Shown piece after piece: positions 17,935 to 59,800 of a stretch of 64,000 nt of DNA. Each line of letters begins with the position of its first letter. The stretch's first letter is position 1. Source of the stretch: Tabrizicola thermarum (lineage in GTDB: Bacteria; Pseudomonadota; Alphaproteobacteria; Rhodobacterales; Rhodobacteraceae); assembly GCF_003574395.1 (NCBI RefSeq), contig NZ_QMJY01000013.1, positions 434,001 to 498,000 of the forward strand, in the 5' to 3' direction. The notes under the pieces were generated by a model. It was not told the origin of the DNA, ran no database searches, and worked only from the letters and a program-made list of their open reading frames with translations. Made by a program: the position numbers and the translations under genes.

Positions 17935-20900
17935 ATGCACGTCGTCTTCCGCGAAAGCCACGGGCTGGAGGAAACCGAGACCCCCTTCGACGTCGGGCAG
18001 GACCCGGCGGATCTGGTGGTGCTCTCGTTCTCCGACAGCGACCTCGGGGCCTTCACGGCAGGCTATGAGCGCGCCCGCAGGCTGGGTTTCCAACCCACGG
18101 TCCGCCTCGCCAACATCATCGCGCTGAAGCACCCGGTTTCCGTCGACACCTATGCCGACCGCACTCTCCTGGGCGCGAAGGCCATCCTCGTCCGCCTGAT
18201 CGGCGGCGAGGCCTACTGGCCCTACGGCCTCGCCACGCTCCAGGACCTCGCCCGCCGCAACGGGATTGCGCTCGCCATCCTTCCCGCCGACGGCCGCCCC
18301 GACCCGCGCCTGGATGAGCTGTCCACGCTGCCCGTCTCCACCCTCCGCCGCTTGCAGGCGCTGTGCGACGAGGGCGGGGCCGTCGCGGCCCATGCGGCCC
18401 TTGCGCAACTGGCGCTGGCGGCCGGCATCTACGCGGCCCCGGTCATCGGCGAAAAGACCGTGCCGCAGATGGGGTTCTACGACCCCGAAAGGGGCGTCGT
18501 CTCCGCACCGGCCCCCCACCCCCATCCCCTCCCCACCGAGGGGGAGGGGAGGCTCCCCGGCCAGACCTCCCCCGCAACGGACACCACAGGCGCCTCCCTC
18601 CCCCCCTCGTGGGGGAGGGATGGGGTGGGGGGGCCGCTTGCCAAGGGTCCCGTCCTCGTCACCTTCTACCGCAGCTACCTGACCTCCGGCGATACCGCCC
18701 CGGTGGATGCCCTGATCCATGCCCTCCGCGCCGAAGGGTTCGCCGCCTGCGGCGCCTTCGCCCCCAGCCTCAAGGCCCCCGGCGTCGCCGACTGGCTGTC
18801 AGCCCACCTCGCCGCAAACCCGCCCGTCGCCATCGTCAACGCCACCGCCTTCTCGGCCCGCGACGATGCCGGCAGGACCCCCTTCGACGCCGCCCATTGC
18901 CCCGTCTTCCAGGTCGCGCTTTCCACCAACCGCCGCCGCGACTGGGCGGCCTCCAACCGGGGCCTCTCTCCCGCCGACCTTGCGATGCATGTCGTCCTGC
19001 CCGAGGTGGACGGCCGCCTCTTCGCGGGGATCGTCAGCCACAAGTCCCCCGGCAAGCGCCACCCGGAGCTGCAATTCTCCCGCTTCGCCCACCGCGCCGA
19101 CGCAGGCCGCATCAAAGCCGTGGTCGATCGCGTGAAACACTGGCACCGCCTGGCGACCACCCCCGCACCCGACCGCCGCCTTGCCGTGATCCTCTCCACC
19201 TATCCCGGGCGCCCGCACCAGATGGCCCATGCCGTCGGCCTCGACGCGCTGGCCTCGACCGAGCGCCTCCTCGAAACCCTCGCCGGCGAAGGCTATCACG
19301 CCACCGAAGGCCAACCCCTGCCGCACGCGCTGGCGGAAACCCTCACCTGGCCCCTCGCCGCCTATGAGGCCGCCCTCGCAACTCTCCCCGAGACCCTCCG
19401 CCAGACCATGACCGAGGCGTGGGGCGACCCCGCCACCGATCCCTCGGTAAAGGACGGCGCGTTCCACTTCCCCGCCGCCCGCCGGGGCCACACCCTCATC
19501 GCCCTGCAACCCGAACGCGGCGAGGTCGCCAGCCGCGACAGCGACTACCACGACCTCTCCCGCACCCCGCGCCACGCCTATGTCGCCTTCTACCTGTGGC
19601 TCCGGTCGCAATCCCTGCACGCCCTGATCCACATGGGGGCGCATGGCACGCTGGAATGGCTGCCGGGCAAATCCGTCGCGCTCTCCGACACCTGCTGGCC
19701 CGAGGCGCTGATCGGCTCCACCCCGGTCATCTACCCCTTCATCGTCAACGACCCCGGCGAGGCGGCGCAAGCCAAGCGCCGCATCGGTGCCGTGACCCTC
19801 GGCCACCTGCCGCCGCCGCTGACGCAAAGCGTGGTCCCGCCCGAACTCCAGCGCCTCGAACGCCTCCTCGACGAATATTCCACCGCCGACGGGCTGGACC
19901 CCGCCCGCCGCCGCCGCCTGATCGACACGATCCGCGACGAGGCTGCGGCATCGGGCGTGGCCGCCGACCTCGGCCTGTCCGCCAATGCCACCCCGGCCGA
20001 GGCGATCACCCGCATCGACCGCTTCGTCTGCGACCTGAAGGAAAGCCAATACGGCCACGGCCTGCACATCTTCGGCGACGGCGAGGGCGAGACCCGGGGC
20101 CTTCTTGCCGCGCTGAACGGCCAGCGCGTCCCCCCCGGGCCCGCAGGCTCGCCGCACCGGGGCCGCAGCGACGTGCTGCCCACCGGTCGCAACCTGTTCA
20201 GCGTCGATCCCCGCGCCGTCCCCTCGCGCAACGCCCATGCCCAGGGCGTGAAACTGGCCGAGGAACTGATCCGCCGCCACCTCCAGGACCACGGCGACTA
20301 TCCGCGCGGGCTGGTGGTGGACCTCTGGGGGTCAGCGACCATGCGCACGGCGGGTGAGGAATTCGCCATGGCCCTCCACCTCGCGGGCCTCGCACCGAAA
20401 TGGGACGAAGGCTCGGCCCGCGTCTCCGGCTTCGAAATCCTCCCCCTCGCCCTTCTCGGCCGCCCGAGGATCGACGTCACCCTGCGCGTCTCGGGCCTGT
20501 TCCGCGACGTGTTCCCGACGCTCGCCCAGCTTTTCGAGGCCGGGGCGGAAGCCCTGTCCCGAAGGGAAGAACCGCCCGAGGACAACCCCTATACCACGCG
20601 GGCCTCCCGCGTCTTCGGCCCCAGACCCGGCCTCTACGGCCTTGGCATGGGCACCGCCGCCGAGACCTTCACCGACGAGGCCCGCGCCGCAGCCGGTGAG
20701 GCCTGGCTAAACGCCTCCTCCTGGGCCATCGGCCAGGACGGCCAGTCCACCGAGGCCCGCGCCGCCCTCGAAGCCCGGGTCCTCTCAGCCGACAGCTTCG
20801 TCCACGCCCAGGACCTGCCCGAAACAGACGTCCTGATCGCCGCCGACTATGCCGCGCACGAGGCAGGCTTCGCCGCCGCCGTGGCGAGGCTGGGGGGCAA

Positions 20901-21294
20901 CAAACCCACCCTCTACCACCTCGACACCACCCGCCCCGACACGCCGCACGCCCGCACCCTGACCGAGGAAATCGCCCGCGTCACCCGCGCCCGGGCCGCC
21001 AACCCGGCCTGGGCGGAAGGCATGATGCACCACGGCTTCCGCGGCGCCGCCGAAATCGCCGCCACGCTGGACCACATGGCCGCCTTCGCCCATCTGGCCC
21101 AAGTGGTCCCACCGCACCTCTTCGACCTCTACCACGAGGCCACCCTGGGCCGCGACGCGGTTCGCGACTTCCTTGCCCGCGAAAACCCCGCCGCCCTCCA
21201 GGCCATGGAAGACCTCTTCCGCCGCCTTCGCGACGCCGGCCTCTGGCAGACCCGCCGCAACTCCATCGCCGCAAGCCTCGACGGTGCCGCATGA
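17935..21294 (+). CDS. cobN: Cobaltochelatase subunit CobN
   Basis: 1119-residue large subunit of the aerobic ATP-dependent cobaltochelatase, inserting cobalt into hydrogenobyrinic acid a,c-diamide with CobS and CobT. Family blocks include HMGAHGTLEWLPGKSVALSD and NPYTTRASRVFGPRPGLYG. The ATG at 17935 follows GGAAAGG. At about residues 192-236 (bases 18511-18643) a low-complexity Pro/Gly-rich insert is encoded by two inverted copies of a G-rich palindromic element; the frame is kept, so the protein is probably functional with an extra surface loop. Confidence 0.95.
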   Translation: MHVVFRESHGLEETETPFDVGQDPADLVVLSFSDSDLGAFTAGYERARRLGFQPTVRLANIIALKHPVSVDTYADRTLLGAKAILVRLIGGEAYWPYGLATLQDLARRNGIALAILPADGRPDPRLDELSTLPVSTLRRLQALCDEGGAVAAHAALAQLALAAGIYAAPVIGEKTVPQMGFYDPERGVVSAPAPHPHPLPTEGEGRLPGQTSPATDTTGASLPPSWGRDGVGGPLAKGPVLVTFYRSYLTSGDTAPVDALIHALRAEGFAACGAFAPSLKAPGVADWLSAHLAANPPVAIVNATAFSARDDAGRTPFDAAHCPVFQVALSTNRRRDWAASNRGLSPADLAMHVVLPEVDGRLFAGIVSHKSPGKRHPELQFSRFAHRADAGRIKAVVDRVKHWHRLATTPAPDRRLAVILSTYPGRPHQMAHAVGLDALASTERLLETLAGEGYHATEGQPLPHALAETLTWPLAAYEAALATLPETLRQTMTEAWGDPATDPSVKDGAFHFPAARRGHTLIALQPERGEVASRDSDYHDLSRTPRHAYVAFYLWLRSQSLHALIHMGAHGTLEWLPGKSVALSDTCWPEALIGSTPVIYPFIVNDPGEAAQAKRRIGAVTLGHLPPPLTQSVVPPELQRLERLLDEYSTADGLDPARRRRLIDTIRDEAAASGVAADLGLSANATPAEAITRIDRFVCDLKESQYGHGLHIFGDGEGETRGLLAALNGQRVPPGPAGSPHRGRSDVLPTGRNLFSVDPRAVPSRNAHAQGVKLAEELIRRHLQDHGDYPRGLVVDLWGSATMRTAGEEFAMALHLAGLAPKWDEGSARVSGFEILPLALLGRPRIDVTLRVSGLFRDVFPTLAQLFEAGAEALSRREEPPEDNPYTTRASRVFGPRPGLYGLGMGTAAETFTDEARAAAGEAWLNASSWAIGQDGQSTEARAALEARVLSADSFVHAQDLPETDVLIAADYAAHEAGFAAAVARLGGNKPTLYHLDTTRPDTPHARTLTEEIARVTRARAANPAWAEGMMHHGFRGAAEIAATLDHMAAFAHLAQVVPPHLFDLYHEATLGRDAVRDFLARENPAALQAMEDLFRRLRDAGLWQTRRNSIAASLDGAA
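18511..18643. repeat. In-frame G-rich palindromic repeat inside cobN
   Basis: Two copies in inverted orientation (about 18511-18553 and 18591-18635), each with the core CCCACCCC..ATCCC..CTCCCC, flank 38 bases of other sequence. Related single copies sit in dnaE (59475), xdhC (52612) and, degenerate, cobB (28681). Translated in cobN it gives the run HPHPLPTEGEGRLPG and, after a gap, LPPSWGRDGVGG. Confidence 0.85.
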
Positions 21295-21306
21295 CCGGGC
21301 AGCCCT

Positions 21307-21383
21307 TTCATCTGTCCCCAAATATCCCCGCCGGAGGCACGCCCCGAGCCGGTTGCGCGCCCTTCGCGCGCAGAGGCGAGACT
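21307..21383. repeat. Junction repeat between cobN and cobG
   Basis: On the minus strand reads from GTCTCGCCTCTGCGCGCG through GCGCAACCGGCTCGGG to GATATTTGGGGACAGATG. Its best match is at 27120-27197 in the opposite orientation, between cobE and cobM; the AT-rich end also matches the element at 3073. It fills most of the 148-base cobN-cobG gap. Confidence 0.8.
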
Positions 21384-21442
21384 AAAGACTTGCGCCGCAA
21401 GGCGCTCGATCTGAAAACCGCCCCAACCAGGGGGCGCGCCGC

Positions 21443-22684
21443 ATGACCGCCTGGGAGATCAGGGGCTGGTGCCCCGGCGCGCTGCGGCCGATGCAATCCG
21501 GCGACGGCCTCGTGGTCCGCATCCGCCCGCCTCTGGGCCGCCTGACCCCCGAACAGGCGCAAGCCATCGCTGATGCCGCCGAAACCCACGGCAACGGCAT
21601 CCTCGACCTTTCTGCCCGCGCCAACCTGCAACTGCGCGGCGTGACCGAGGCCAGCCATCCGCGCCTGATCGAGGACCTCCGCGCGCAAGCCCTGATCGAC
21701 CCCGACATCCAGACGGAATCCCTCCGCAACCTGATCGTCACCCCTTTTCGCGCCCCCCGTCCCGGGCTTGACCCGGGACCTCTCGTGGGACCGGGCACGC
21801 TGGACGAAGGACGAGGTCCCGGGTCAAGCCCGGGACGGGGATCCCTTGACGCCGCCGACACCGACACTCTCGCCGCCACCCTCACCGCCGCGCTTGCCCG
21901 GATGCCCAGGCTCCCCGGCAAGTTCGGCTTCGCCCTCGACACCGGCCCGCGCCCTGTCCTGACCGGGGCCTCCGCCGACATCCGCGTCGAACGCAGCCCC
22001 GATGGCCGTCTGATCCTACGCCCCGACGGACACCCGCTCGGCCAGCCTGTCACCGACCTTGCCCGCGACACCATCGCCATGGCCGAATGGTTCGTCGCCA
22101 ATGGCGGCATCAGCAACGGCCGGGGCCGCATGGTCGCCCTCATCGCCCGTGGCATCGTCCCGCCCGACTGCACCGTCGCGTCCGCCGAGCCGCTCCCTGC
22201 ACCAGCCCCCGGTCTCCACCCGGACGGGGCGCTCGTCGCCCTTGCCTTCGGCCAGATGCAGGCCGCGACGCTGCGCGCCCTCGCCGCCCTCGGCCAGGAG
22301 ATCCGCCCGACGCCGTGGCGGATGCTGCTGATCGTGGGTGCAACGACGCTGCCGCAGATCCCCGGTCTCATCATCGACCCGGCCGACCCAATCCTGCGCA
22401 TCACCGCCTGCACCGGCGCGCCCGCCTGCCCGCAGGGCCTTGGCGACACGCGCCAGCTTGCAAGACAGCTCGCCCCGCATCTCGCGCCCGGGCAGAGCCT
22501 GCACCTCTCCGGCTGCGCCAAGGGCTGCGCCCATCCCGGCCCCGCGCCGCTGACCCTTACCGCCACCGACAAGGGCTACGACCTGATCCGGGGCGGCACC
22601 GCCCATGACACGCCCAGCCTGACGGGCCTTTCTCCGCAGGCGATCCTGAACCACCTGAAGGCCCCCCATGCCCCACCTCTATGA
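21443..22684 (+). CDS. cobG: Precorrin-3B synthase
   Basis: 413-residue Fe-S/siroheme-type monooxygenase of the nitrite/sulfite reductase ferredoxin-like family that contracts the ring path by making precorrin-3B with O2, marking the aerobic pathway. The cluster/heme-ligand cysteines are CTGAPAC and SGCAKGC (about residues 323-362). An insert at about residues 105-132 (PRPGLDPGPLVGPG... ) is encoded by a 28-bp-arm inverted repeat and explains the excess over the usual length near 380-390. It overlaps cobH by 17 bases. Confidence 0.92.
   Translation: MTAWEIRGWCPGALRPMQSGDGLVVRIRPPLGRLTPEQAQAIADAAETHGNGILDLSARANLQLRGVTEASHPRLIEDLRAQALIDPDIQTESLRNLIVTPFRAPRPGLDPGPLVGPGTLDEGRGPGSSPGRGSLDAADTDTLAATLTAALARMPRLPGKFGFALDTGPRPVLTGASADIRVERSPDGRLILRPDGHPLGQPVTDLARDTIAMAEWFVANGGISNGRGRMVALIARGIVPPDCTVASAEPLPAPAPGLHPDGALVALAFGQMQAATLRALAALGQEIRPTPWRMLLIVGATTLPQIPGLIIDPADPILRITACTGAPACPQGLGDTRQLARQLAPHLAPGQSLHLSGCAKGCAHPGPAPLTLTATDKGYDLIRGGTAHDTPSLTGLSPQAILNHLKAPHAPPL
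21755..21840. repeat. In-frame inverted repeat inside cobG (CCGGGCTTGACCCGG family)
   Basis: Perfect 28-base arms at 21755-21782 and 21813-21840 (core CCCGGGCTTGACCCGGGACC) around a 30-base loop. The related element after pheT (63723-63788) differs by paired changes that keep the stem. In cobG it is read through in frame. Confidence 0.9.
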
Positions 22685-23297
22685 AACCGACGGCGCCGCG
22701 ATCTACGCCCAGAGCTTCGCCATGATCCGGGCCGAGGCCGACCTTTCCCGCTTCACCCCCGAGGAAGAGGTGGTCGCCGTCCGCATGATCCACGCTGCCG
22801 GGATGGTGGAACTGGCGCCGCACATCCATTTCACCCCCGGCATGGCCATCGCCGCCCGGGCAGCGCTGGAGGACGGCGCGCCGATCCTCTGCGATGCGCG
22901 CATGGTCAGCGAGGGCATCACCCGCGCCCGGCTGCCGAAGGACAATCAGGTCATCTGCACCCTGCACGATCCAAAGGTTCCCGCGCTGGCGAAGGAGATG
23001 CGGAACACCCGCTCTGCCGCCGCGCTGGAGCTCTGGCGGCCCCACCTTGCCGGGGCCGTCGTCGCCATCGGCAACGCGCCCACCGCGCTGTTCCATCTGC
23101 TGAACATGCTGGAAGACCCGGCCTGTCCCCGCCCTGCCGCGATCATCGGCTGCCCGGTTGGCTTCGTTGGTGCCGCCGAGTCGAAGGACGCGCTGATGGC
23201 GGCCCCGCCCGCGCCCGCCCTGATCGTCAAGGGCCGCCTCGGCGGGTCGGCGATCACCGTGGCCGCAGTCAACGCGCTGGCGTCACGGAAGGAATGA
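22668..23297 (+). CDS. cobH: Precorrin-8X methylmutase
   Basis: 209-residue CobH/CbiC isomerase that moves a methyl group from C11 to C12 to give hydrogenobyrinate. The blocks VRMIHAAGMVELAPHIHF (with the catalytic His) and VIGNAPTALFHLL-like AIGNAPTALFHLLNML followed by GCPVGFVGAAESKDAL are diagnostic. It overlaps cobG by 17 bases and cobI by 4, so expression is coupled. Confidence 0.95.
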   Translation: MPHLYETDGAAIYAQSFAMIRAEADLSRFTPEEEVVAVRMIHAAGMVELAPHIHFTPGMAIAARAALEDGAPILCDARMVSEGITRARLPKDNQVICTLHDPKVPALAKEMRNTRSAAALELWRPHLAGAVVAIGNAPTALFHLLNMLEDPACPRPAAIIGCPVGFVGAAESKDALMAAPPAPALIVKGRLGGSAITVAAVNALASRKE

Positions 23298-24031
23298 CGA
23301 TGGGACGCGTGATCTGCGCCGGCCTCGGCCCCGGCGACCCCGAACTGATGAGCCTGAAGGCCGCCCGCACCATCGGGGCCGCCCGCCATGTCGCCTATTT
23401 CCGCAAGGAAGGCCGCCCCGGACAGGCCCGCCGGATCGTCGAGGGGATGCTGCACCCCGCCGCCATCGAATACCCGATGGAGTATCCGGTCACCACGGAA
23501 CTGCCTTTCGACAGCCCTGACTACACCGACGCGCTGGCCCGGTTCTACGACGACTGGGCGAGCCGCCTTGCCGCCCTCGCCGCGACCGAGGATGTGGTGG
23601 TGCTCTGCGAAGGCGACCCGTTCTTCTATGGCAGCTTCATGCACCTGCATTCCCGCCTGCAAGGCCGGGTGCCGGTGGAGGTGATCCCCGGCATCACCGG
23701 CATGACCGGCTGCTGGACCGCGACCGGCACGCCGATCACCTGGGGCGATGACGTGCTGACCGTGCTGATGGGCACGCTGCCCGAGGATGATCTGGTGCGG
23801 CATATGCAACAGGCCGATGCGCTGGTGGTGATGAAGACGGGCCGCAACCTGCCCCGCGTCCGCCGCGCGCTGGAGCGGGCGGGGCGGCTGGATCAGGCCT
23901 GGCTTGTCGAACGCGGCACCATGCCCAACCAGCGCGTGGCCCGTCTGGCCGAGGTCGATCCGACCGACTGTCCCTATTTCGCCATCGTCCTCGTCCACGG
24001 CCACGGCCGCCGCCCGGAGCTTCCCGAATGA
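23294..24031 (+). CDS. cobI: Precorrin-2 C20-methyltransferase
   Basis: 245-residue SAM-dependent tetrapyrrole methylase. GLGPGDPELMSLKAAR is the N-terminal signature, VVVLCEGDPFFYGSF the second, EVIPGITGMTGC the third. Methylates C20 of precorrin-2 to precorrin-3A. ATG at 23294 overlaps the cobH stop; a second in-frame ATG at 23300 is equally possible. Overlaps cobJ by 4 bases. Confidence 0.94.
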   Translation: MTMGRVICAGLGPGDPELMSLKAARTIGAARHVAYFRKEGRPGQARRIVEGMLHPAAIEYPMEYPVTTELPFDSPDYTDALARFYDDWASRLAALAATEDVVVLCEGDPFFYGSFMHLHSRLQGRVPVEVIPGITGMTGCWTATGTPITWGDDVLTVLMGTLPEDDLVRHMQQADALVVMKTGRNLPRVRRALERAGRLDQAWLVERGTMPNQRVARLAEVDPTDCPYFAIVLVHGHGRRPELPE

Positions 24032-24762: not shown

Positions 24763-24821
24763 ACCGGGCCAAAATCCTTCGAAGGATTTTGCAAGACTTT
24801 TCGAAAAGTCTTGGCCCCGGT
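24763..24821. repeat. Twin 22-bp TTCGAA palindrome element (copy 2), likely bidirectional terminator
   Basis: The element is the complete gap between the convergent cobJ and cobK stops. Perfect 22-base palindromes at 24770-24791 and 24792-24813 abut; outer arms ACCGGGCC and GGCCCCGGT enclose them. Position between convergent genes suggests termination on both strands. Confidence 0.85.
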
Positions 24822-26721: not shown

Positions 26722-27077
26722 TCGTCGCAGGGTTCGGATTTCGCACCGGCGCAACCCTTGCCGCCTTGCAGGACGCCCTGTCGCGCGCCGGGGGGCCGAT
26801 CGGGGTCACCCACCTCGCCACGCTGAAGGCCAAGGTCGGGGGGCTTGCCGCCTTGGGACAGGTTCTGGGCCTGCCGGTCATCGCGCTGGAGCCGGAATCC
26901 CTGCGCGGGATCGCGACACCCACGCGATCCGACCGGGTGGTGGCGATGTTCGGCACGGGGTCGGTCGCGGAGGGCGCGGCCTTGGCGGCGGCAGGGCCGG
27001 GCGCGCGCCTGCGGGCGCCTCGGGCGGTGTCGGCGGACGGGACGGCGACGGCCGCCATAGCGGAGGGCTTGGGGTGA
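26718..27077 (+). CDS. cobE: Cobalamin biosynthesis protein CobE (CbiG C-terminal domain)
   Basis: 119-residue protein equal to the C-terminal domain of Cbi[22 protein letters not shown] and [11 protein letters not shown](A) are the conserved pieces. The molecular role in the aerobic pathway is unclear. The ATG at 26718 overlaps the cobL stop; the open frame upstream is a shadow of cobL. Confidence 0.88.
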
Positions 27078-27119
27078 GGGGCGGCTGCGAAATTGCGCGC
27101 CTGACGGCGCCAGCCCTTT

Positions 27120-27197: not shown

Positions 27198-27213
27198 TGC
27201 AGGAGTGGTTCAG

Positions 27214-27999
27214 GTGACCGTCCATTTCATCGGGGCCGGGCCGGGGGCTGCGGACCTTCTGACGATCCGGGGGAGGGATCTGATCGCGGCCTCTCCCGTC
27301 TGTCTTTATGCCGGGTCGCTGGTGCCCGAGGGGGTGCTGGCGCATTGTCCGCCGGGTGCGCGGCGCGTGAACACCGCGCCAATGTCGCTGGACGAGATCA
27401 TCGCCGAGATCGTCGCCGCGCATGCGGCGGGGCAGGACGTGGCGCGGCTGCATTCCGGGGACCTGTCGGTCTGGTCGGCGATGGGCGAGCAGCTGCGGCG
27501 GCTGCGCGAGCTGGGCATTCCCTATGACGTGACGCCGGGCGTGCCGTCCTTTGCAGCAGCGGCGGCGGCGCTGGGGGTGGAGCTGACGCTGCCGGGCCTT
27601 GCGCAGTCGGTGGTGCTGACGCGGACAGAGGGGCGCGCAACGCAGATGCCCCCGCGCGAGACGCTGCCCGCCTTTGCCGCGACCGGGGCGACGCTGGCCC
27701 TGCACCTGTCGATCCACCTGATCGACAAGGTGACAGAGGAGCTGATCCCGCATTATGGCGCCGACTGTCCGGTGGCGGTGGTCTGGCGGGCCTCCTGGCC
27801 CGATCAGCGGATCATCCGGGCGACGCTGGCCACGCTGAAGTCTGCGGTCCCGGAAGAGGTAGAGCGGACGGCGCTGATCCTTGTCGGCCCCGCGCTGGCG
27901 CAGGAGGGGTTCGAGGAAAGCCGACTTTACGCCGGCGACTACGACCGCCGCTACCGTCCCGTCGGCACCCATCCGCGCTTTCCGGGGACCGGCCGATGA
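27214..27999 (+). CDS. cobM: Precorrin-4 C11-methyltransferase
   Basis: 261-residue tetrapyrrole methylase making precorrin-5. Motifs: [68 protein letters not shown]. The GTG at 27214 is placed 8 bases after AGGAG; the longer open frame upstream runs into the palindromic repeat. Overlaps cobB by 4 bases. Confidence 0.93.
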
Positions 28000-29330
28000 T
28001 CCCGGGCCTTCTTGTCGCGGCTCCGGCAAGCGGCTCCGGCAAGACCACGGTCATGCTGGGTTTGCTGGCCGCGCTGCGCGAGAGTGGGCTGACGGTGCAG
28101 CCGTTCAAGAACGGGCCGGATTACATCGACCCGGCCTTCCATCGGGCGGCGAGCGGGCGGGAGAGCTTCAATCTCGACAGCTGGGCCATGCCGGGGCCAA
28201 TGCTGGACGGGATGCTGTCGGCGGCCGAGGGCGCGGATCTGGTGCTGGCCGAGGGCTCGATGGGCCTGTTCGACGGCGTTGCGGCCAGGGGGGCCACGGG
28301 GAACGGCGCCAGCGCGGATCTTGCGGCGCGGATGGGCTGGCCGGTCGTGCTGGTGATCGACGCCTCCGGTCAGGCGCAGACGGCGGCGGCGGTGGCGCTG
28401 GGGCTGGCGCGGTTCCGCCCGGCTGTGCGGGTGGCGGGGGTGATCCTGAACCGGATCGCCAGTGCCCGGCACGAGGCTCTGGTGCGCGCGGGCATGGAGG
28501 AGGCGGGGCTCTCGGTCCTTGGTGTCCTGCCCAAACGCGCGGCGATTGCGATGCCCGAGCGGCACCTTGGCCTCGTGCAGGCCGAAGAACAGCCTGCGCT
28601 GCAAGCACTGATCGCCCAGGCCGCCGCCCTGATGCGCGAAGGCGTGGACCTGGACGCGCTGGTGCAGGCGGCAGGTGCCTCCCCTCCCACGGGTGGAGAG
28701 GGGACGGGGGGCACCGCCCGGCTGACACCGCCCGGCCAGCGCATCGCGCTCGCCCGCGACGCGGCCTTCAGCTTCGTCTATCCGCATCTTCTGCACGGCT
28801 GGCGCGCGGCGGGGGCCGAGGTGCTGCCCTTCTCGCCGCTGGCCGACCAGGCCCCCGACCCCTCGGCGGATGTCTGCTGGCTGCCGGGCGGCTATCCCGA
28901 ACTGCACGGCGCGACCCTGGCAAACGCCGACCGCTTCCGCGCCGGTCTTCATGCCTTTGCCGCGACAAGGCCCGTCCACGGCGAATGCGGGGGCTACATG
29001 GCGATGGGCGAGGCGATCGTGGACAAGGACGGAACGCGGCACCGGATGGCGGGGCTTCTGGGTCTTGTCACCAGCTTCGAGACGCGGAAGATGCATCTTG
29101 GCTACCGCAGCGCAAGGCTGATGCAAGGCATCCCCGGGCAGGCCCCGGGGCAACTGCTGCGCGGGCATGAGTTCCACTATTCCACCATCCTCGCCCAACC
29201 CGACGCACCTTTGGCCGCGGTCACGGATGCAACCGGCGCGCCGGTGGCGGAAACCGGCAGCACTCGACTCCAGCCCGGCGGCGGGCTATCGACCGGCACC
29301 TTCTTTCACCTGATCGCGCCTGCCCCATGA
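27996..29330 (+). CDS. cobB: Hydrogenobyrinic acid a,c-diamide synthase
   Basis: 444-residue glutamine amidotransferase amidating the a and c side chains before cobalt insertion. The N-terminal ATPase domain has the P-loop [16 protein letters not shown] and [16 protein letters not shown]; the C-terminal class I GATase domain has the nucleophile in [11 protein letters not shown] (Cys near 331) and HEFHYST. Between the domains, about residues 228-240, a short Pro/Gly-rich stretch looks like a worn copy of the G-rich repeat found in cobN. Confidence 0.94.
28681..28722. repeat. Degenerate G-rich repeat inside cobB linker
   Basis: CCTCCCCTCCC, then GGAGAGGGGACGGGGGGCAC, matches the right half of the cobN element with several changes. 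It encodes [11 protein letters not shown] in the linker between the two CobB domains, in frame. Confidence 0.5.
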
Positions 29331-30156: not shown

Positions 30157-30204
30157 TCGTCGCGTGTCGCCTTCCATCTTGCCTCGCGACCAGGACAGGC
30201 GCAG

Positions 30205-30406
30205 AAAGGCAGGGCAAGGTGTCCCATCAGGCGCAAAGCGCCGGGACTGAAACGGGAATGAGGAGCGGGCGGACCCTGACGGGCGCCCGTGACATCAGCC
30301 GCCCCCGCGACTGTCAGCGGTGAGCGGGTCTTCCTCAGCCACTGTCCCCGACGGGATGGGAAGGCGAAGACCCTCCACGATCCGCCAGCCAGGAGACCGG
30401 CCCTGC
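30205..30406 (+). ncRNA. Cobalamin (B12) riboswitch upstream of the CbiM-like gene
   Basis: Ordered B12-riboswitch elements: AAGGTGTCCC near 30216, GGGAATGAGGAGC near 30254, GCCGCCCCCGCGACTGTCA near 30298, GCCACTGTCCCCG near 30338, GGGAAGGCGAAGACCC near 30358 and GCCAGCCAGGAGACCGGCC near 30383-30401. It occupies nearly the whole 294-base gap after cobA and ends about 45 bases before the start of the permease gene, which has GGAGGG as ribosome site. Confidence 0.92.
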
Positions 30407-30450
30407 AAAAGAAGCAAACCGCCGTCGGGTGTGACGGTCAGGAGGGACTT

Positions 30451-35701: not shown

Positions 35702-35851
35702 CCCCGTAATTCCCCGGAGGCATCAGCTTCCGGTCCCTTGGGCATTTCCCGGGATCGCCATCCGTCAGCGCGTCTGCGCCCACGGGTGCCTTTCCGCTTT
35801 GCGCCAGGGCTTCGCCGCCCCATATCGGGGCAAACAGCACGAGGTGACGCG

Positions 35852-50368: not shown

Positions 50369-50375
50369 GCCCCCG

Positions 50376-51899
50376 TCAAACATGATGCGCGACCTCCATG
50401 CCATGCGCGCCGCCCATCATCAGTCCGATCTCGTCCATCGTCAGCCCCTCGGTCGGCCGCGGCTTCGTCAGCCGCCCCTCGTTCAGCACTGCAAAGCTGT
50501 CGGCCACCTCCAGCAGCTCGTCCAGATCCTGGCTGATGACCACCACCGCCGCCCCTTCGCCCGCCCGGTCCAGAATGCTCTGCCGGATCGAGGCCGCCGC
50601 CGCCGCATCCACCCCCCAGGTCGGCTGGTTGATCACGATGACCTGCGCCCCCTGCATCAGCTCGCGCCCCATCAGGAACTTCTGCAAATTCCCCCCCGAC
50701 AGCGCCCGCGCCGCCACATCCGGCCCCGGGGTCCGCACGTCATAGGCCGCGATGATCTCCTCGGCGAACTTCCGCGTTCCCGCCCAGTCCACGAAGCCGT
50801 TCCGCGTCAGCCCCTTGCGCACCCCGGCGGTCAGGAAGGCGTTCTCGACCAGCGACATGTCCGGCGCCGCCGCATGGCCGTAGCGATCCTCCGGCGCAGC
50901 GACCAGCCCCGCGCGCCGACGCTCCACCGGCCCGCAATCGCCCACGGGTTGCCCCGCGACCCGCACCCTGTCCGGCGCCGCCTTCAACTCCCCCGACAAT
51001 GCGAGCAAAAGCTCATCCTGGCCGTTCCCGGCCACCCCGGCGATGCCCAGAACCTCGCCCTTGGCCACCGTGAAGGACACCCCCTTCAACGAGGTCCCGA
51101 ACGGAATGGGCGACTCGAGCGACAGGTCCGACACGCCCAGCGCCACCTCGCTCTTCGCCCCCATCCGCCGCTCCGGGGTCTTCAGCGCCTGGCCGACCAT
51201 CAGCTCCGCCATCTCCCGCGCCGTCCGGTCCCGCGGGGTGCAGGTCGCCACCACCTTGCCCCGGCGCAGGATCGTCGCCTCGTCGCAGAGGCTGCGGATT
51301 TCCTCCAGCTTGTGGCTGATATACAGGATCGCCGTCCCCTCCCGCGCCAACTGCCGCAGCGTCCTGAACAGGATCTCCACCTCCTGCGGCGTCAGCACCG
51401 AGGTCGGCTCGTCCATGATCAAGAGCTTCGGGTCCTGCAACAGGCAGCGGATGATCTCCACCCGCTGCCGCTCTCCCGCGCTCAGGTCCCCGACCATCCG
51501 CGACGGGTCCAGCGGCAGCCCATACTCCTCGCTGACCGCCCGGATCCGCGCCGCAAGTTCCCTCATGGCCGGCGGGTTCTCCATCCCCAGCGCCACGTTC
51601 TCGGCCACGTTCAGCGCCTCGAACAGGGAAAAGTGCTGGAACACCATCGCCACGCCCGACCGCCGCGCCTCGGCCGGTTTCGCGGGCTGATAGGGCGCGC
51701 CGCGCAGGGTCATAGTCCCGCTGTCGGGCCGCACCAGACCATAGATCATCTTGACCATGGTCGATTTCCCCGCCCCGTTTTCCCCCAGCAGCGCGTGAAT
51801 CTCCCCCTCGCCGATGGAAAAGGACACGTCGGAATTCGCCACCACGCCCGGATAGGCCTTGGTGATCCCCTCGACGCGCAGAAGCTCCGGCCTGGTCAT
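50376..51899 (-). CDS. ABC transporter ATP-binding protein (BMP-type, double ATPase)
   Basis: 507-residue protein with two ABC modules, as in YufO/RbsA-like importers. The first has ALLGENGAGKST, LSAGERQRVEIIRCL and LLIMDEPTSVLTP; the second has a degenerate Walker A (GIAGVAGNGQDELL), LSGGNLQKFLMGREL and VIVINQPTWGVD in place of the Walker B Glu, so it is probably catalytically weak. The ATG at 51899 overlaps the xdhC stop by 4 bases, coupling the importer to xanthine dehydrogenase. Confidence 0.93.
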   Translation of the reverse strand: MTRPELLRVEGITKAYPGVVANSDVSFSIGEGEIHALLGENGAGKSTMVKMIYGLVRPDSGTMTLRGAPYQPAKPAEARRSGVAMVFQHFSLFEALNVAENVALGMENPPAMRELAARIRAVSEEYGLPLDPSRMVGDLSAGERQRVEIIRCLLQDPKLLIMDEPTSVLTPQEVEILFRTLRQLAREGTAILYISHKLEEIRSLCDEATILRRGKVVATCTPRDRTAREMAELMVGQALKTPERRMGAKSEVALGVSDLSLESPIPFGTSLKGVSFTVAKGEVLGIAGVAGNGQDELLLALSGELKAAPDRVRVAGQPVGDCGPVERRRAGLVAAPEDRYGHAAAPDMSLVENAFLTAGVRKGLTRNGFVDWAGTRKFAEEIIAAYDVRTPGPDVAARALSGGNLQKFLMGRELMQGAQVIVINQPTWGVDAAAAASIRQSILDRAGEGAAVVVISQDLDELLEVADSFAVLNEGRLTKPRPTEGLTMDEIGLMMGGAHGMEVAHHV

Positions 51900-52855
51900 G
51901 CCCGCATCTCCCTTGCCGCCACCTTTGGCGCCCGCAACAACTCTGCCGCCACACCCACCGCAATCGCCTGCGGATGCTTGCCCAGGGCCGGATCGCCGAT
52001 CGGGCACCGGATGCGCTCCACCGCCTGCGCCTCATGCCCCAGCGCCCGCAGCCTGGACCGGAACCGCCCCCATTTCGTCGCCGACCCGATCAGCCCGCAG
52101 GACCGGAACCCCCGGTTCAGCAGCCGGTGACACAGCTCCAGGTCCAGCGCATGGGAAAAGGTCAGCACCAGATGCTCGGCCTCCGGCGGAGCATGATCCG
52201 CGAGCACCGCCGGATCGCGCGCCGGAACCACCGTCACCCCGTCCGGCACCCCCTCCGGAAACCGCTCTGCCGCGACATCCACCCAGGTCAGCGCGATCCC
52301 CGGCAAGGGCGCCAGCACATTGACCAGCGCCCGCCCGACATGCCCCGCGCCCCAGACCCAGACCTGCCGCTCCGCCTCTGCCACCGGCTCCACCAGCCAG
52401 CCGGCCACCAGCCCCGGCGCGGGACGCACCCCTTGCCCCCGCGCCGCCGCCAGCACCCGCTTCACCGCAAGGGGCATCTCGCCCACACCCCGCGCGACCA
52501 CACCCGCCACGGCTTCCGGCACCGCTTCGAACACCTCGGTCCACAGCACCACCGCCCCGCCGCAGCACTGGCCAAGGCTCGGCCCCAGCGCGACCCGCTC
52601 GACCAAAGGCGCCTCCTTCTCCCCTCCGTGGGGGAGGGATGGGCTGGGGGGGCTTCCCGCCAGCAACAAACGCGCCTTCGCTGCCGCCTCATACTCCAGC
52701 GCACCACCGCCGATCGTCCCCGACTGCCCCTGATCCCAGACCAGCATCGACGCGCCCACCTCGCGCGGGCTCGATCCCTCGACCCCCGCGATCACCACCC
52801 GGGCCACCCGCCCATGCGCCCGGATCGCCTCTGCCAATGCCGCAAGGTCAAACAC
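51896..52855 (-). CDS. xdhC: Xanthine dehydrogenase accessory protein XdhC
   Basis: 319-residue chaperone that binds molybdenum cofactor, aids its sulfuration and loads XdhB. VVIAGVEGSSPREVGASMLVW is the N-terminal XdhC/CoxI domain; WVWGAGHVGRALVNVLAPLP is the C-terminal Rossmann part and GLIGSATKWGRFRSRL follows. At residues about 66-84 a Pro-rich insert (SPPSPSLPHGGEKEAP) is encoded by a G-rich repeat in frame. GTG start at 52855 overlaps xdhB by 8 bases. Confidence 0.92.
   Translation of the reverse strand: MFDLAALAEAIRAHGRVARVVIAGVEGSSPREVGASMLVWDQGQSGTIGGGALEYEAAAKARLLLAGSPPSPSLPHGGEKEAPLVERVALGPSLGQCCGGAVVLWTEVFEAVPEAVAGVVARGVGEMPLAVKRVLAAARGQGVRPAPGLVAGWLVEPVAEAERQVWVWGAGHVGRALVNVLAPLPGIALTWVDVAAERFPEGVPDGVTVVPARDPAVLADHAPPEAEHLVLTFSHALDLELCHRLLNRGFRSCGLIGSATKWGRFRSRLRALGHEAQAVERIRCPIGDPALGKHPQAIAVGVAAELLRAPKVAAREMRA
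52612..52660. repeat. In-frame G-rich repeat inside xdhC
   Basis: Plus strand GCCTCCTTCTCCCCTCC then GTGGGGGAGGGATGGGCTG and GGGGGGC, matching the cobN right copy and the dnaE copy. It is read on the minus strand as PPSPSLPHGGEKEA, in frame. Confidence 0.8.
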
Positions 52856-55262
52856 AGCCCTCGACCCTCCTGACCGCCATCAGCACCCGTTCCGCCGTCG
52901 CCGGCGCATCCAGCGCCGGATAGACCGACCCATCCCCGCAGGCCGCCACCGCATCCGACAAGGCCATCAGCGCCGAAATCCCCAGCATGAACGGGGGTTC
53001 CCCCACTGCCTTGGACTTCCCGACCGAATCCTCCCGGTTGGGCCTGCCCCACAGCGCCACGCGGAAATCGCGCGGCCGGTCCGAACAGGCCGGGATCTTG
53101 TAGGTGCTGGGAGCATGCGTCATCAGCCGCCCCTTGCCATCCCACACAAGCTCCTCGGTCGTCAGCCAGCCCGCGCCCTGCACATAAGCCCCTTCCACCT
53201 GCCCGATATCCAAAGCCGGGTTCAGGCTGGTCCCCGTGTCGTGCAGCAAATCCGCCCGCAAAATCCGGTTCTCCCCGGTCAGCCGGTCGATCACCACCTC
53301 GGTCACCGCCGCCCCGTAGGCGAAATAGAAGAACGGCCGCCCCGTCCCCTTCACCCGGTCCCAGATGATCTTCGGCGTCGCGTAATACCCCGTGGAGGAC
53401 AGGCTGACCCGCGCCTGATAGGCCCAGGCCACCACCCGCGCCCAGTCATAGACCTCGCCCGCGACCTTCACGGTGCCATCCACGAACCTGACCGTCGAAG
53501 CCTTCACCTGATGCTTCTCGGCAATGAACTCCGCCAGCCGCCCGCGGATGGTCTCCGCCGCCGCCCTCGCCGCCATCCCGTTCAGGTCCGACCCCGAGGA
53601 CGCCGCCGTGGCGCTGGTATTCGGCACCTTCCCCGTGTCCGTCGCCGTGATCTTCACCAGACCCACATCGACGCCGAACACCGAAGCCGTCACCTGCGCC
53701 ACCTTCTGGAACAACCCCTGTCCCATCTCGGTCCCGCCATGGTTAAGCGCGATGGACCCGTCCTGATAGACATGCACCAGCGCCCCGGCCTGGTTCAGCC
53801 AGGTCAGCGTGAACGAGATCCCGAACTTCACCGGCGTCAGCGCGATCCCCCGCTTCAACACCGGGGACCGCGCATTCCACTCCGCAATCTCCGCCTTCCG
53901 CGCCCGGTAGTCGCTGGTCCGCTCCAGTTCCGCCACCAGATCGTGCCCGATGAAATCCTCCACCGGCATGTGGTAGGGCGTCGTCTGCACCCGCCCGTCC
54001 GGCGGCAGGTCATGCGACCCGACAGGGCCCGCCGCACCGCGAGACGTCAGATCCGCCCCGCTTCCTGCTTTCATCTGTCCGGAAATATCCCGGGGGTCCG
54101 GGGGCTGGCCCCCGGGGTCTCCCATCCCGCGATAGAAGTTGGCCTTGCGCACCTCCAGCGGCTCTCGCCCCAAGACGAAAGCCACATGGTCCATGACCCG
54201 CTCGATCCCCACCATCCCCTGCGGCCCGCCAAAGCCCCGATAGGCCGTGGCGCTACAGGTGTTGGTCTTCAGCCGGTGGCTCTCGATGCGGATGTGGGGC
54301 AGGTGATAGCAGTTGTCCGCGTGCAGCATCGCCCGGTCCGCGACCGGCAGGCTCAGGTCCTGCGACCAGCCGCAGCGGAAGAGATGCGTGAACTCCAGCC
54401 CCAGAATCCGCCCCTCCTCGTCCACCCCGGCACGATAGACGATCCGCAGATCATGCCGCTTGCCCGTGATGACCATGTCGTCATCCCGGTCATACCTCAT
54501 CCGGCAGGGCCGCCCGGTCAGACGCGCCGCCACCGCACAGGCAATCGCCAGCGCGTTCCCCTGGCTCTCCTTCCCGCCGAATCCCCCGCCCATCCGCCGC
54601 ACTTCCACCCGCACCGAGGACATCGGCATGTGCAGCGCATGGGCCACCTTGTGCTGCACCTCGGTCGGATGCTGGGTCGAGGAATGGACGACCATGTCGC
54701 CCCCTTCCTGCGGGATCGCCGCCGCGACCTGCCCCTCCAGATAGAAGTGCTCCTGCCCTCCCACCTCGAAGGACCCCTCGACGACGCGCGGAGCCTTCTC
54801 GATGGCCCTTGCCGCATCGCCCTTGGCCCAGATGACCGGCCCCTGCTCGAACCGGCTGTTCGCGGCCAACGCGTCATCGACGGTCAAAAGCGCGGGCAGT
54901 TCCCGATAGGACACCTTCCCCAGCCGCGCCGCCTTGCGCGCCGCCAGATGGCTTTCGGCCACGACCAGAAAAACCGGCTGCCCGACGTAATGCACCTTGC
55001 CCACCGCCAACAGCGGCTCGTCATGCGCCGAAGGGCTGCAATCCGGCATGTCGTCGAAATCCTCCGCCGACAGCACCGCGACCACGCCCGGAGCAGCCCG
55101 CACCGCCGACAGATCCATCCCCGTGATCTCGCCATGCGCCACGGTGGACAGTCCGAAGGCCAGATGCAGCGCATTGGCCAAGGGCAGGTCGTCCACATAG
55201 CGCGCCTGCCCGGTCACATGCAGGGGTGCCGCGTCATGCGGCAGGGCTTTCCCCATGCTCAT
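52848..55262 (-). CDS. xdhB: Xanthine dehydrogenase, molybdenum-binding subunit
   Basis: 804-residue large subunit carrying Moco. [28 protein letters not shown] (Moco contact), [11 protein letters not shown] and [15 protein letters not shown] are present, and the catalytic Glu lies in [13 protein letters not shown]. Normal bacterial XdhB is about 770-790 residues; here residues about 379-398 ([20 protein letters not shown]) are encoded by a palindromic repeat kept in frame. Overlaps xdhA by 4 bases. Confidence 0.93.
54069..54124. repeat. In-frame ATATCCCGGGGG repeat inside xdhB
   Basis: Plus strand CATCTGTCCGGAAATATCCC then a palindrome CCGGGGGCTGGCCCCCGG. It matches the junction element at 3073-3122 along its length. 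On the minus strand it is translated in frame within XdhB. Confidence 0.85.
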
Positions 55263-56635
55263 CGCGCCACCTCCAGCACCGACACCGGCACGCCCGCCAG
55301 ATCATGGAAATACCGCCGCAGCAGGTTCTGCGCCGTCAGCATCCGATAGGCCGCGCTGGCCCGCATATCGCTCAGCGGCGTGAAATCCGCCGCCATCGCC
55401 TCGGCCGCCGCCTCGACGGTCGCCTCGCTCCAGGGCTTGCCCAGCAGCGCCGCCTCCGCGCGACTGGCGCGCTTCGGCACCCCGGCCATGCCGCCAAAGG
55501 CGATCCGGGCGGATGTCACCACACCGTCCGTGACCGTCACGTTGAAACACCCGCAGACCGCGCTGATGTCCTGATCGAACCGCTTGGAAATCTTGTAGCA
55601 GCGCAGCGCCGGGGCGCTTTCCGGGAACGACACTCCCGCCACGAACTCGCCCGGCCGCCGGTCCTGCTTGCGATAGTCCAGGAAGAAGTCCTCCAGCGGC
55701 ATCGACCGCATCTCGTCCCCCCGCCGCAGATGCAGGGTCGCGCCCAGGGCGATCAGCGCCGGCGGCCCGTCGCCGATGGGCGAGCCGTTGGCGATATTGC
55801 CCCCGATCGTCGCCGCATTGCGCACCTGCACCGACGCATACCGCCGCAAAAGCTCGGCGAACGAGGGCAGCCGGTCCTTCACCGCCTCTCGCAGCGCGCT
55901 GATCGTCACGCAGGCACCCACATGCAGGCTGCCCCCGCGCACCTCGATCCCCTTCAGGTCCTCGACGCCCGACAGGAAGGCCACCGGCTTCAGGTCCCGC
56001 AGCTGCTTTGTCACCCAAAGCCCCACATCCGTCGCCCCGGCCACCAGCACGGCATCCGGATTGGCCAGATACCACTCCGCCAGTGCATCCGAATCCGAGG
56101 GCCGGAACGCCCCCGCCTCCCCCGCAGCGAACGACGCCACCGCATCCCGATCCGCCTTCATCCAGTCCGGCACCGCCTCACCAGCCGCCGCCTCCGCCGC
56201 CCGCACGATGGGGGCATACCCGGTGCACCGGCACAGGTTCCCCGCCAGCTGGTCGTCGTGGTCCCGCGCCCCGTTCAGATGCGCCACCGCCATGCTGACC
56301 ACGAAACCGGGCGTGCAGAACCCGCACTGGCTGCCGTGATGCGCCACCATCGCGGCCTGCACCGGATGCATCTCACCCTTCGGCCCCGACACACCCTCTA
56401 TGGTCCGCACCGCCTTGCCATGCAGTTGCGGCAGGAACAGGATGCAGGCGTTCAGCGCCTTCGAGCCGCCCTCGTCGGTGACCATCACCGTGCAGGCGCC
56501 GCAGTCGCCCTCGTTGCAGCCTTCCTTGGTCCCGGTCAGACCGCGCTCTTCGCGCAGCCAGTCCAGAAGCGTCCGCGTCGGGGCTTCCCCCTCGATGCGA
56601 ACCGGCGTTCCGTTCAACAGAAACGCAATGCTCAT
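55259..56635 (-). CDS. xdhA: Xanthine dehydrogenase, FAD/2Fe-2S subunit
   Basis: 458-residue small subunit passing electrons to NAD+. Plant-type ferredoxin cysteines are at 40, 45, 48 ([12 protein letters not shown]) and in LNACILF; the second cluster is CGFCTPG...CRCTGY. The FAD domain (from about 185) has [14 protein letters not shown]. It is the first gene of the xdhABC-transporter operon; the 244-base region to 56880 should contain its promoter and that of dnaE on the other strand, but I could not assign convincing boxes. Confidence 0.94.
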
Positions 56636-56879
56636 CTGTCAGTCCGCCGCCTTCTCCCCGGTCGAGGCAAATTGCGGGATCGCCCGATGCGGCGTAAAGC
56701 GACCCACGCGCCCCTTGTTCTGGTTATCATTCCATCAAGCGCGGCCCGGCGATTCAAGGCAAGAACAAACTCATCGCCAAAAGGCGAAGCTGTTATCAGG
56801 ATTTGCCGAAAATTCGGGCGTCGCAGCCTGAGACCAAACCGCCCTTCCACCCCCGCACAGCCCGCGCTAGACTCCCGCC

Positions 56880-59800
56880 ATGCCCGGCGCGAACCCCCGT
56901 TTCATCCACCTCCGCACCCACACCGAACACTCGCTTCTCGAAGGCGCGGTGCCGGTGAAGAAACTCGTCGGCCTCTGCACGGCGCAGGCCATGCCCGCCG
57001 TTGCCGTGACCGACACGAACAACATGTTCGCGGCCCTGGAGTTCTCCGTCACCGCCATGGGCGCCGGGGTCCAGCCCATCGTCGGCTGCCAGATCTCCAT
57101 CGCCCATGACCCCGCCCAGCCAGGCGAAAAGCCCCGCCTGCCCGCGCCCATCGTCCTTCTGGTCCAGACCGAACAGGGCTACATGAACCTGATGCGGCTC
57201 AACACGCGGCTTTACATCGACGGGGCGATGACGGGCTCGGCCAACCTGCCGCAAGTGACGCTGGACGAGCTTGCACAGAACGCCGAGGGCCTGATCTGCC
57301 TGACCGGCGGCCCCGAAGGCCCCCTTGGCCGCTTCCACGCCAGCGGCCAGCACGCCAAGGCCCGCGCGATCCTGGAACGCCTCGCGCAGATCTACCCGAA
57401 CCGCCTGTATGTCGAGCTGCAACGCCACCCCGGCCCCGGCGGCGCGCTTCCCGAACACGAGGCGCTGGCCGAACGCGGCGCCATCGACCTCGCCTACGAA
57501 CTGGGCCTGCCGATCGTCGCCACCAACGACGTCTATTTTCCAAAGGCCGAGATGTACGAGGCGCACGACGCCCTCATCTGCATCGCCGAGGGCGCCTATG
57601 TCGACCAGCAGCAGCCCCGCCGCCGCCTGACCCCGCAGCACTACTTCAAGTCCGAGGCCGAGATGGCGGCGCTTTTCGCCGACCTTCCCGAGGCGCTGGA
57701 AAACACCGTCGAGATCGCGAAACGCTGCGCCTATGCCGCCTCGAAACGCAAGCCGATCCTGCCGCGCTTCGCCGATGACGAGGTGCAGGAGCTGCGCCGT
57801 CAGGCCAACGAAGGCTTGCAGAAGCGTCTGGCCGTGATCCCCCATTCCGCCACGCCCGATGAATACCAGGCCCGCCTCGATTTCGAGCTTGGCATCATCG
57901 AGAAGATGGGCTTCCCCGGCTATTTCCTGATCGTGGCCGACTTCATCAAATGGGCCAAGGACCACAATATTCCGGTGGGTCCCGGCCGGGGCTCGGGCGC
58001 GGGTTCGCTGGTGGCCTATGCGCTGACGATCACCGACCTTGATCCCATGCGCTATGCACTCCTGTTCGAACGCTTCCTCAACCCCGAACGCGTCTCGATG
58101 CCCGACTTCGACATCGACTTCTGCATGGACCGGCGCGAGGAAGTCATCGCCTATGTCCAGGAAAAATACGGCCGCGACCGGGTGGCCCAGATCATCACCT
58201 TCGGCGCCCTGCTCTCGAAAGCCGCCGTCCGTGACGTGGGCCGCGTCCTGCAACTCTCCTACGGTCAGGTCGACAAGCTGTCGAAGATGATCCCGGTCGA
58301 AGGCGTGAAGCCCGTCTCGATCACCAAGGCCCTTGCCGACGAACCCCGGTTGCGCGAGGCCGCGAAAGAGGAAGTGGTCGGCCGCCTCCTCGATTACGCC
58401 GCCAGGATCGAAGGCCTCTATCGCAACGCCTCGACCCATGCCGCGGGCGTCGTGATCGGCGACCGCCCCTTGGACCAGCTGGTGCCGCTCTACCGCGACC
58501 CCCGGTCCGACATGCCCGCGACCCAGTTCAACATGAAATGGGTCGAGGCGGCGGGGCTGGTGAAATTCGACTTCCTCGGCCTCAAGACCCTGACCGTGAT
58601 CCAGAACGCGATGGACCTTCTGAAGCTGCGGGGCATCGAGTTCGACATCAACCTGATCCCGCTGGACGACAAGGCCACCTACGATCTCTACGCCTCCGCA
58701 AGGACGGTCGCGGTATTCCAGGTCGAAAGCTCGGGCATGATGGACGCGCTGCGGCGCATGAAGCCCACCTGCATCGAGGACATCGTCGCCCTCGTGGCGC
58801 TCTACCGCCCCGGCCCGATGGAGAACATCCCGGTCTATTGCGAGGTGAAGAACGGCCTGCGCGAGCTGGAATCGATCCATCCGACGATCGACCACATCCT
58901 CAAGGAGACGCAGGGCATCATCGTCTATCAGGAACAGGTGATGCAGATCGCCCAGGTCATGGCGGGCTATTCCTTGGGCGGTGCCGACCTTCTGCGTCGC
59001 GCGATGGGGAAGAAGATCCCCGAGGAAATGGCCAAGGAACGGCCCAAGTTCATCGAGGGCTGCGCGAAGACCCACGGGATCGACGCGAAGAAGGCGGGCG
59101 AGGTCTTCGACCTGCTGGAGAAATTCGCCAACTACGGCTTCAACAAGTCGCACGCAGCCGCCTATGCCGTGGTCAGCTACCAGACCGCCTACCTCAAGGC
59201 GAACTATCCGGCCGAGTTCATGGCCGCCGTGATGAACTGCGACATCCACCTCACCGACAAGCTGGCGGTCTACAAGCGCGAGGTGGACAAGCTGGGCATC
59301 AGGACCGTGGCGCCCTGCGTCAACGCCAGCCTTGCCACCTTCACCGTCCGCGACGGCGCCATCGTCTATGGCCTCGGTGCCCTGAAGAACGTCGGCGTCG
59401 AGGCGATGAACCTTATCGTCCAGGCCCGGATGGCACCGGCGTCATCCCAGGCTCAATCGCCCGACAGCCCGCGCCTCCCCTCCCCCCCGTGGGGAGGGGA
59501 TGGGGGTGGGGGGCACCCGGTCAGCCAGACCGACAAACCCTTCACCACCCTCTTCGACTTCGCCCGCCGCGTGGACCTGAAACGCATCGGCAAGCGCCCG
59601 CTGGAGATGCTCGCCCGCGCCGGAGCCTTCGACCAACTCGACCCCAACCGCGCCCGCGTATTCGACTCGCTCGACGCCCTCACCGCCTATTCCGCCGCCA
59701 TCCACGAAGCCGCCGCATCCACCCAGAACTCGCTCTTCGGCAGCGCCGGGGCCGACATCCCCGAACCCCGCCTGCCCTTCCGCGACGACTGGCTTCCCAC

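Follow-up and report, generated by a model that had tools for sequence, protein, structure and literature searches.

Within a 64,000-nt stretch of the genome of Tabrizicola thermarum (NCBI RefSeq assembly GCF_003574395.1, contig NZ_QMJY01000013.1, positions 434,001 to 498,000 of the forward strand; hereafter the window), the genes cobN, dnaE, xdhC and, doubtfully, cobB hold copies of one short palindromic repeat (Table 1). The genome, G000 in the set compared here, comprises 3.65 Mb in 76 contigs, and the window is G000:C8:434001-498000. The repeat had been pointed out from the letters alone, as two inverted copies in cobN, single copies in dnaE and xdhC and a worn copy in cobB, and the coordinates given in that original prediction are correct to about 10 bases. 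A model of the repeat, R1, was built from 21 copies with the consensus GCGCCTCCCCTCCCCCnCCGTGGGGAGGGGATGGGGGTGGGGGGC, and at E<=0.01 it finds five places in the window. Four are strong copies (E 6e-12 to 7e-10) that were used in building R1, so that their scores are partly by construction; the fifth, the weak cobB copy, lay outside the model. An independent check with a 21-nt core pattern, allowing up to three mismatches, yields three matches in the window where 0.07 are expected, and together with R1 it confirms the element in cobN, dnaE and xdhC; a looser core pattern is not above chance there (four matches against 1.09 expected, with 5 of 100 shuffles as high). All four host genes are read through in frame, and the repeat can be read in either orientation. 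Its consensus is free of stop codons in all six frames, which is likely from the G+C content anyway. Genes were called by codon-usage scoring with the window as training set and, for intragenic hosts, also by Pfam or NCBIfam.

Table 1. Copies of the repeat in the window and the genes that hold them (window positions; bit scores of copies are those of R1, mismatches are to the Escherichia coli triplex-motif (TM) pattern)
Feature	Position	Strand	Evidence
Triplex-motif repeat, subtype A, unit 1 of inverted pair in cobN	18511..18555	-	70.5 bits; 2 mismatches
Triplex-motif repeat, subtype B, unit 2 of cobN pair (inner gap 34 nt)	18590..18634	+	65.4 bits; 1 mismatch
cobN (cobaltochelatase subunit), host of pair	17935..21294	+	NCBIfam NF008973, 1640.6 bits
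Triplex-motif repeat, subtype A, in dnaE	59471..59514	+	71.4 bits; 2 mismatches
Whole extra dnaE block (34 codons vs one in bare orthologues; net +99 nt)	59430..59531	+	orthologue comparison
dnaE (DNA polymerase III alpha), host	56880..60425	+	NCBIfam NF004226, 1441.9 bits
Triplex-motif repeat, subtype B-like, antisense to xdhC	52609..52653	+	61.2 bits; 3 mismatches
xdhC, host	51896..52855	-	NCBIfam TIGR02964, 264.5 bits
Possible worn repeat copy in cobB, weak	28675..28712	+	29.3 bits, E 0.0015; 5 mismatches
cobB, host of doubtful copy	27996..29330	+	NCBIfam NF002204, 496.1 bits

The repeat unit is 45 nt long; conservation outside it is weak and fades about 10 nt past a G-rich tail. Its fold was analysed on 147 copies from three genomes. 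A 10-pair stem is kept, with two subtypes, A and B, set apart by compensatory changes in two adjacent pairs, and in an alignment fitted to the model 94 cells are changed on both sides of the hairpin compared with 40.5 in shuffles. The tail, which takes no part in the pairing of the hairpin, shows roughly the same degree of conservation as the stem (91–100% at its G positions, 52–83% at its breaks) and mirrors the purine arm. Class II intrastrand triplexes are laid out as a pyrimidine arm, a loop, a purine arm, a second loop and a Hoogsteen arm, as set out in the available part of Holder et al. (2015, PMC4666352). The published rule for this class (a stem of at least 7 with at most one mismatch) is obeyed by 128 of the 147 copies and by none of 441 composition shuffles, the stems being mostly of 9–11 triads. 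In subtype A, assigned by the place of the A in the purine arm, the tail is broken after 5–6 G in 65 of 71 readable copies, and in subtype B the run before the break is 3–4 G long in 35 of 38. Among the 121 copies whose break base can be read (26 of the 147 are unreadable), 102 have T, 18 have A and one has C. The position of the break thus goes with the subtype, and all but one of the readable break bases are T or A, as the triad rules ask.

The BoxC/PIT/TM repeats have a closely similar anatomy. As far as the available text of PMC4666352 goes, they share with the present repeat the class II arm order, a short second loop, the existence of two subtypes, copy numbers very different among close relatives, the lack of a known mobile element carrying them, and inverted pairs that mix the subtypes. 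The inverted TM pairs of E. coli K-12 are reported always to join the two types (5/5), and here A is joined to B in 18 of 23 fully typed pairs, where about half would be expected; seven further close pairs are untyped or not inverted. R1 matches a BoxC/TM copy in a control stretch of E. coli K-12 (L390:2097-2138; 25.5 bits, E 0.0005 in 3.5 kb), a stretch that contains an exact match to the E. coli pattern, TMECO. That pattern fits two of the 147 copies exactly, namely the xdhC copies of G010 and G011, and a further 43 with one mismatch, 64 with two and 38 with three or more; the 45 with at most one, to which the second cobN unit belongs as the only one of the five window copies, contrast with a best of six mismatches among 735 shuffles. 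There are also differences. In subtype A here the arm A and the tail T lie one place over from their positions in TMECO, and the majority of copies differ from the pattern by at least two mismatches. The stems here, mostly of 9–11 triads, are another difference. Furthermore, whereas the TMECO copies of E. coli MG1655 are always intergenic according to the portion of PMC4666352 at hand, 21 of 112 copy groups here are in frame in genes.

At the dnaE site the window protein has 34 residues where all 80 named relatives, the closest of them Rhodobacteraceae, have between 0 and 10 (one of the 80, L046, is probably the genus genome G018 and is counted in both sets). The block consists of the repeat preceded by 41 nt and followed by 17 nt, so that 58 nt of it are non-repeat. 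Both flanks are present in 28 of the 30 dnaE loci of the genus, and among these the repeat is in two (G000 and G003), 19 are bare or nearly bare (16 bare and three longer by four residues) and seven have other inserts. The presence of the same insert with both flanks in G003 rules out an assembly artefact. The other in-frame inserts at this site (L147, L148, L173, L151 and L149, L150, L152) are RDEGTTKAARLEE-like and HPPSP..TPVRAEE-like. A third carrier is G012, with an R1 match at L161:445-488 and a similar left part (TAPASSQDQ as compared with MAPASSQAQ). Its contig switches to non-dnaE DNA right after the repeat, with the right dnaE flank unseen, a junction that is either a rearrangement or an assembly join at the repeat. 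The dnaE contig of G027 ends at MAPAAS, within what looks like the beginning of this block. G012 thus shares part of the non-repeat sequence of the block, and G027 its first residues; apart from the similar left flank in G012, the best match to the left flank of the insert among the other loci compared scores 13.

A tree was made from four proteins after the insert columns had been taken out, and the direction of change is not readable from it; on this tree the empty or filled state of dnaE changes at least eight times, and still eight with G012 counted. G012 lies away from G000 and G003, so the repeat-carrying state itself changes at least twice; repeated insertion, loss, exchange between species and an assembly join are all possible sources of these carriers. 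By sequence the insert falls between residues 854 and 859 of E. coli alpha, inside the Pfam helix-hairpin-helix domain HHH_6, which is matched in two stretches. In a predicted structure (251 residues, from 54 sequences) the predicted local distance difference test score is 54–65 in three blocks of ten residues of the insert and 78 in the last, as against 97 in the neighbouring blocks, and the insert forms what looks like a floppy, disordered loop. The original prediction had the inserts of all the host genes add Pro/Gly-rich loops at domain junctions or in surface loops; the modelling, which covered DnaE, gives the disordered loop just described.

At cobN, 26 sites could be measured in 27 loci of the genus, and 11 of them are bare, at 105 nt and with no repeat. 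The filled sites hold a single unit, an inverted pair (heavily worn in one case), a different palindrome family (in G003 and G001) or both (G005, G016), and the contig of G014 ends at the site. This second family, CCCGTCCCGGGCTTGACCCGGGACCTC, has a CGTC-like motif, and in L176 (G003), L182 (G016), L183 (G001) and L184 (G005) its copies occupy this cobN site as an inverted pair. The state of the cobN site changes at least six times on the tree. For xdhC the measured loci, 27 of 30 in the genus, include bare sites, single units, pairs and other forms, with at least eight changes on the tree. A pair of repeats is present in phnI of G003, G004 and G005 and absent from that of G000. The cobB copy is matched by R1 in G000 alone among 28 loci, and the other loci also have a linker there; this is the weak case of the original prediction. 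The expectation of clean presence or absence among orthologues is borne out by the DnaE lengths and by the bare cobN and xdhC sites of the genus; aligned, diverged versions of the same loops throughout the family, which would have spoken for ancestral linkers, are not what dnaE, cobN and xdhC show.

Searched as a whole, the window genome gives 31 matches to R1 at E<=0.1 and 27 at E<=0.01. Within the genus, where up to 150 candidates were scored in each of 32 genomes, 31 genomes carry the repeat, with 0 to 91 matches per genome at E<=0.001; contigs break at repeats, and carriers are undercounted in fragmented genomes. In a family sample, with up to 21 candidates per genome and stricter filters that make copy numbers lower bounds, it is present at E<=1e-4 in 20 of 295 genomes, two of this genus and 18 in other genera, of which 293 were sampled. 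On 973 kb around dnaE of the 80 named Alphaproteobacteria, R1 has no match at E<=0.1.

Copies were scored as lying in genes or spacers in G000, G003 and G005, by whether both sides are coding in one open frame. Of the 112 copy groups, 22 reached the intragenic cut, a score of 13, and 21 remained after removal of L114, whose best frame is opposite a plausible gene (7 of 26 groups in G000, counting the weak cobB copy, 8 of 38 in G003 and 6 of 48 in G005). Near positions 1501-1577 of L114, a start codon within the copy may begin a small signal-peptide-like protein. A mainly coding element was rejected on these counts; that the repeat has no intergenic copy is true of the window, but genome-wide most groups are intergenic, and their lack in the window is a window effect. 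The open reading frames picked cover 82% of the window, so copies in genes are fewer than that share would give, in keeping with the loss of insertions that do harm. In-frame copies are found in 11 different genes of the genus, or 12 with the doubtful cobB: dnaE, cobN, xdhC, cobB, hrpB and genes for a P-type ATPase and an SRPBCC-alpha/beta-hydrolase protein, together with phnI, an RsmE-type methyltransferase gene, an amidase gene, an NnrD/YjeF-type gene and a WaaA-type gene, the last with a Pfam match in its N-terminal half only; some of these short names are our reading of Pfam matches. Inverted pairs of a palindrome are the layout of REPINs, and the same three genomes have 34 adjacent pairs of the repeat, 29 of them in opposite orientation. 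Tails point outwards in 22 pairs, and the inner gap is 33–36 nt in 11 of the 22. The sites of G000 are mostly common to G003, and at these shared sites the copies are 95.1% identical and the flanks 91.2%. In G005 a mosaic array (L359) has the repeat alternating with another repeat.

That the element is mobile or amplifying, as the original prediction implied, holds in the sense of gain, loss or exchange between species, but no mobilising enzyme was found. One candidate would be the REP-associated tyrosine transposase (RAYT), the repeat then being a repetitive extragenic palindromic element (REP) or REPIN of the GTAG or CGTC class, or one akin to the Rickettsia palindromic elements (RPE). The GTAG and CGTC REPs, according to the part of PMC3733652 available, are likewise short palindromes, mostly intergenic, with some copies in frame in genes, Rickettsia conorii dnaE included; RPE, as cited there, are also palindromic and inside genes, a likeness by description only. 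The inverted pairs and the lack of a consistent target duplication would suit such an element too. However, the consensus here has neither a GTAG nor a CGTC tag at its ends, it has a long purine tail whose conservation a third strand would explain, and the RAYT family PF01797 (Y1_Tnp) is over its cut-off in 0 of the 32 genus genomes, with two matches below it, though 31 carry the repeat, unlike the REPIN/RAYT system as outlined in the accessible part of PMC3116915. Mobilisation by a RAYT within the genus was rejected on the PF01797 result. Since the CGTC class itself has no transposase association reported in what is available of PMC3733652, the lack of RAYT alone does not separate a REP from a triplex repeat; taken with the rest of the evidence, a REP or REPIN moved by a RAYT is unlikely. 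Palindromes beginning with GTAG (GTAGGGTGCGCTACAGCGCACC, GTAGGTCGGGGTTCACCCCGAC and variants) do occur beside genes or repeats in L350, L366, L374, L307 and L313, in a genus where RAYT is nowhere over the cut-off.

A miniature inverted-repeat transposable element (MITE) of a conventional insertion sequence is distinctly improbable. The tails-out pair could be taken for 45-nt terminal inverted repeats, and flanking direct repeats that score 12 or more are present at 13 of 109 sites, compared with 2.4 expected from mismatched flanks. At L115:1422-1616 (G000) a copy is flanked by a 49-nt direct duplication, and in L323 (G003) a pair lying between adjoining genes is flanked, as judged by eye, by near-duplicates of some 15 nt from the stop/start junction, a stretch that occurs once in the corresponding L368 (G000). 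Against a MITE, single units are common, the lengths of the duplications disagree and a score of 20 or more is reached at only five of the 109 sites, three of them in the L359 array and one (L350) belonging to another palindrome; a target duplication of fixed length was rejected, no consistent repeat being found over the 109 sites. Least probable of all, and very unlikely, are ancestral low-complexity linkers that have diverged in place. The cobB copy may be such a linker, and the lengths of the DnaE, CobN and XdhC sites do vary in the genus, but the DnaE relatives and the bare cobN sites contradict this origin for dnaE, cobN and xdhC, as does the fit of one consensus to copies across unrelated genes and intergenic sites.

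The G-rich half could instead be conserved as a G-quadruplex. Four G-runs with loops of 1–3 nt are found in 120 of the 147 copies; control pieces have them in 14 of 5400 cases and shuffles in 25 of 2940. The motif is kept in 77 of 93 indel-free copies where random placement of the same changes would leave 64.5, a value as high being reached in one of 2000 draws. A triplex needs the same G-runs, however, and a quadruplex gives no reason for the break in the tail to move together with the purine-arm A; for the E. coli TM, nuclear magnetic resonance favoured triplex over quadruplex, in so far as the source is available. Judged by sequence alone both folds are possible, and the moving break favours the triplex, which leaves a quadruplex element with rather poor odds, much like those of the RAYT-moved REP.

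The reading preferred here, at a probability of roughly 0.7, is that the repeat is a Rhodobacteraceae relative of BoxC/PIT/TM, a 45-nt class II purine-motif intrastrand triplex motif that has spread without a RAYT or a target-duplicating transposase. The pyrimidine arm, a short loop and the purine arm would form a hairpin, and after a short second loop the G-rich arm would lie back on the purine arm as third strand, with G.G-C and T.A-T or A.A-T triads. Its spread would more likely come about by copying and loss of the motif where folded single strands are repaired or replication restarts on them, and part of its patchiness may come from exchange of filled alleles between species. Insertions in coding sequence would persist where the added block leaves the reading frame intact and lands in a loop. 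A bolder form, in which a self-spreading DNA triplex, with third strand and hairpin both selected and copying by way of stalled replication without a transposase, repeatedly enters and leaves the same loops of essential genes including that of the replicative polymerase, is a tentative proposal that we consider doubtful, yet somewhat less so than any of the alternatives above.

Several points weigh against the triplex relative as a whole. Nineteen of the 147 copies (5 of 31 in the window genome) fail the triplex rule, and swapping tails among copies lowers the number of perfect triplexes only from 89 to 73–80. The subtypes could be two old lineages; with most G000 sites common to G003, copies are not independent of one another, and their collection with a consensus model is biased towards conserved positions. 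As most copies have the short-loop quadruplex motif too, conserved G-runs by themselves are not specific to the triplex. For the E. coli TM, footprinting in vivo failed to show a triplex, as far as the accessible report extends. The excess of flank repeats fits poorly with spread free of target duplication, and the absence of PF01797 leaves room for another transposase or for the loss of a former one.

Rfam at its gathering thresholds matches neither the window copies nor the three other loci searched; its matches elsewhere in the window, at 16142-16339, 30200-30419 and 35744-35796, are two cobalamin riboswitches and an ffh small RNA. The literature searched, mostly outside subscription papers, yielded nothing on the core string or on this element among Rhodobacteraceae repeats, and no report of BoxC/TM copies in frame; for RPE and protein structure it gave unrelated papers, and the available parts of PMC12306157 and PMC5082802 do not describe it. 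The original statement that no such element is known to be described for this group is to be qualified, in that the kind has precedent in print, both for the BoxC/PIT/TM anatomy and for intragenic REPs of other families.

What is novel with respect to the literature covered is the occurrence of in-frame coding copies and a third-strand break whose place moves in step with the purine arm. Several genes have orthologues that are empty, filled with the repeat or filled with something else, which lets gain, loss and exchange be traced through coding sequence at single-base resolution. From the third arm comes comparative evidence bearing on whether cells select for a triplex, a point left unsettled by the footprinting of the E. 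coli repeat in the part of that work at hand. E. coli triplex repeats have been tied to genome instability, in what could be seen of the source, and motifs of this kind block DNA polymerase in vitro, according to the available text of PMC4666352; with the dnaE insert, a motif of that polymerase-blocking kind lies within the replicative polymerase’s own gene.

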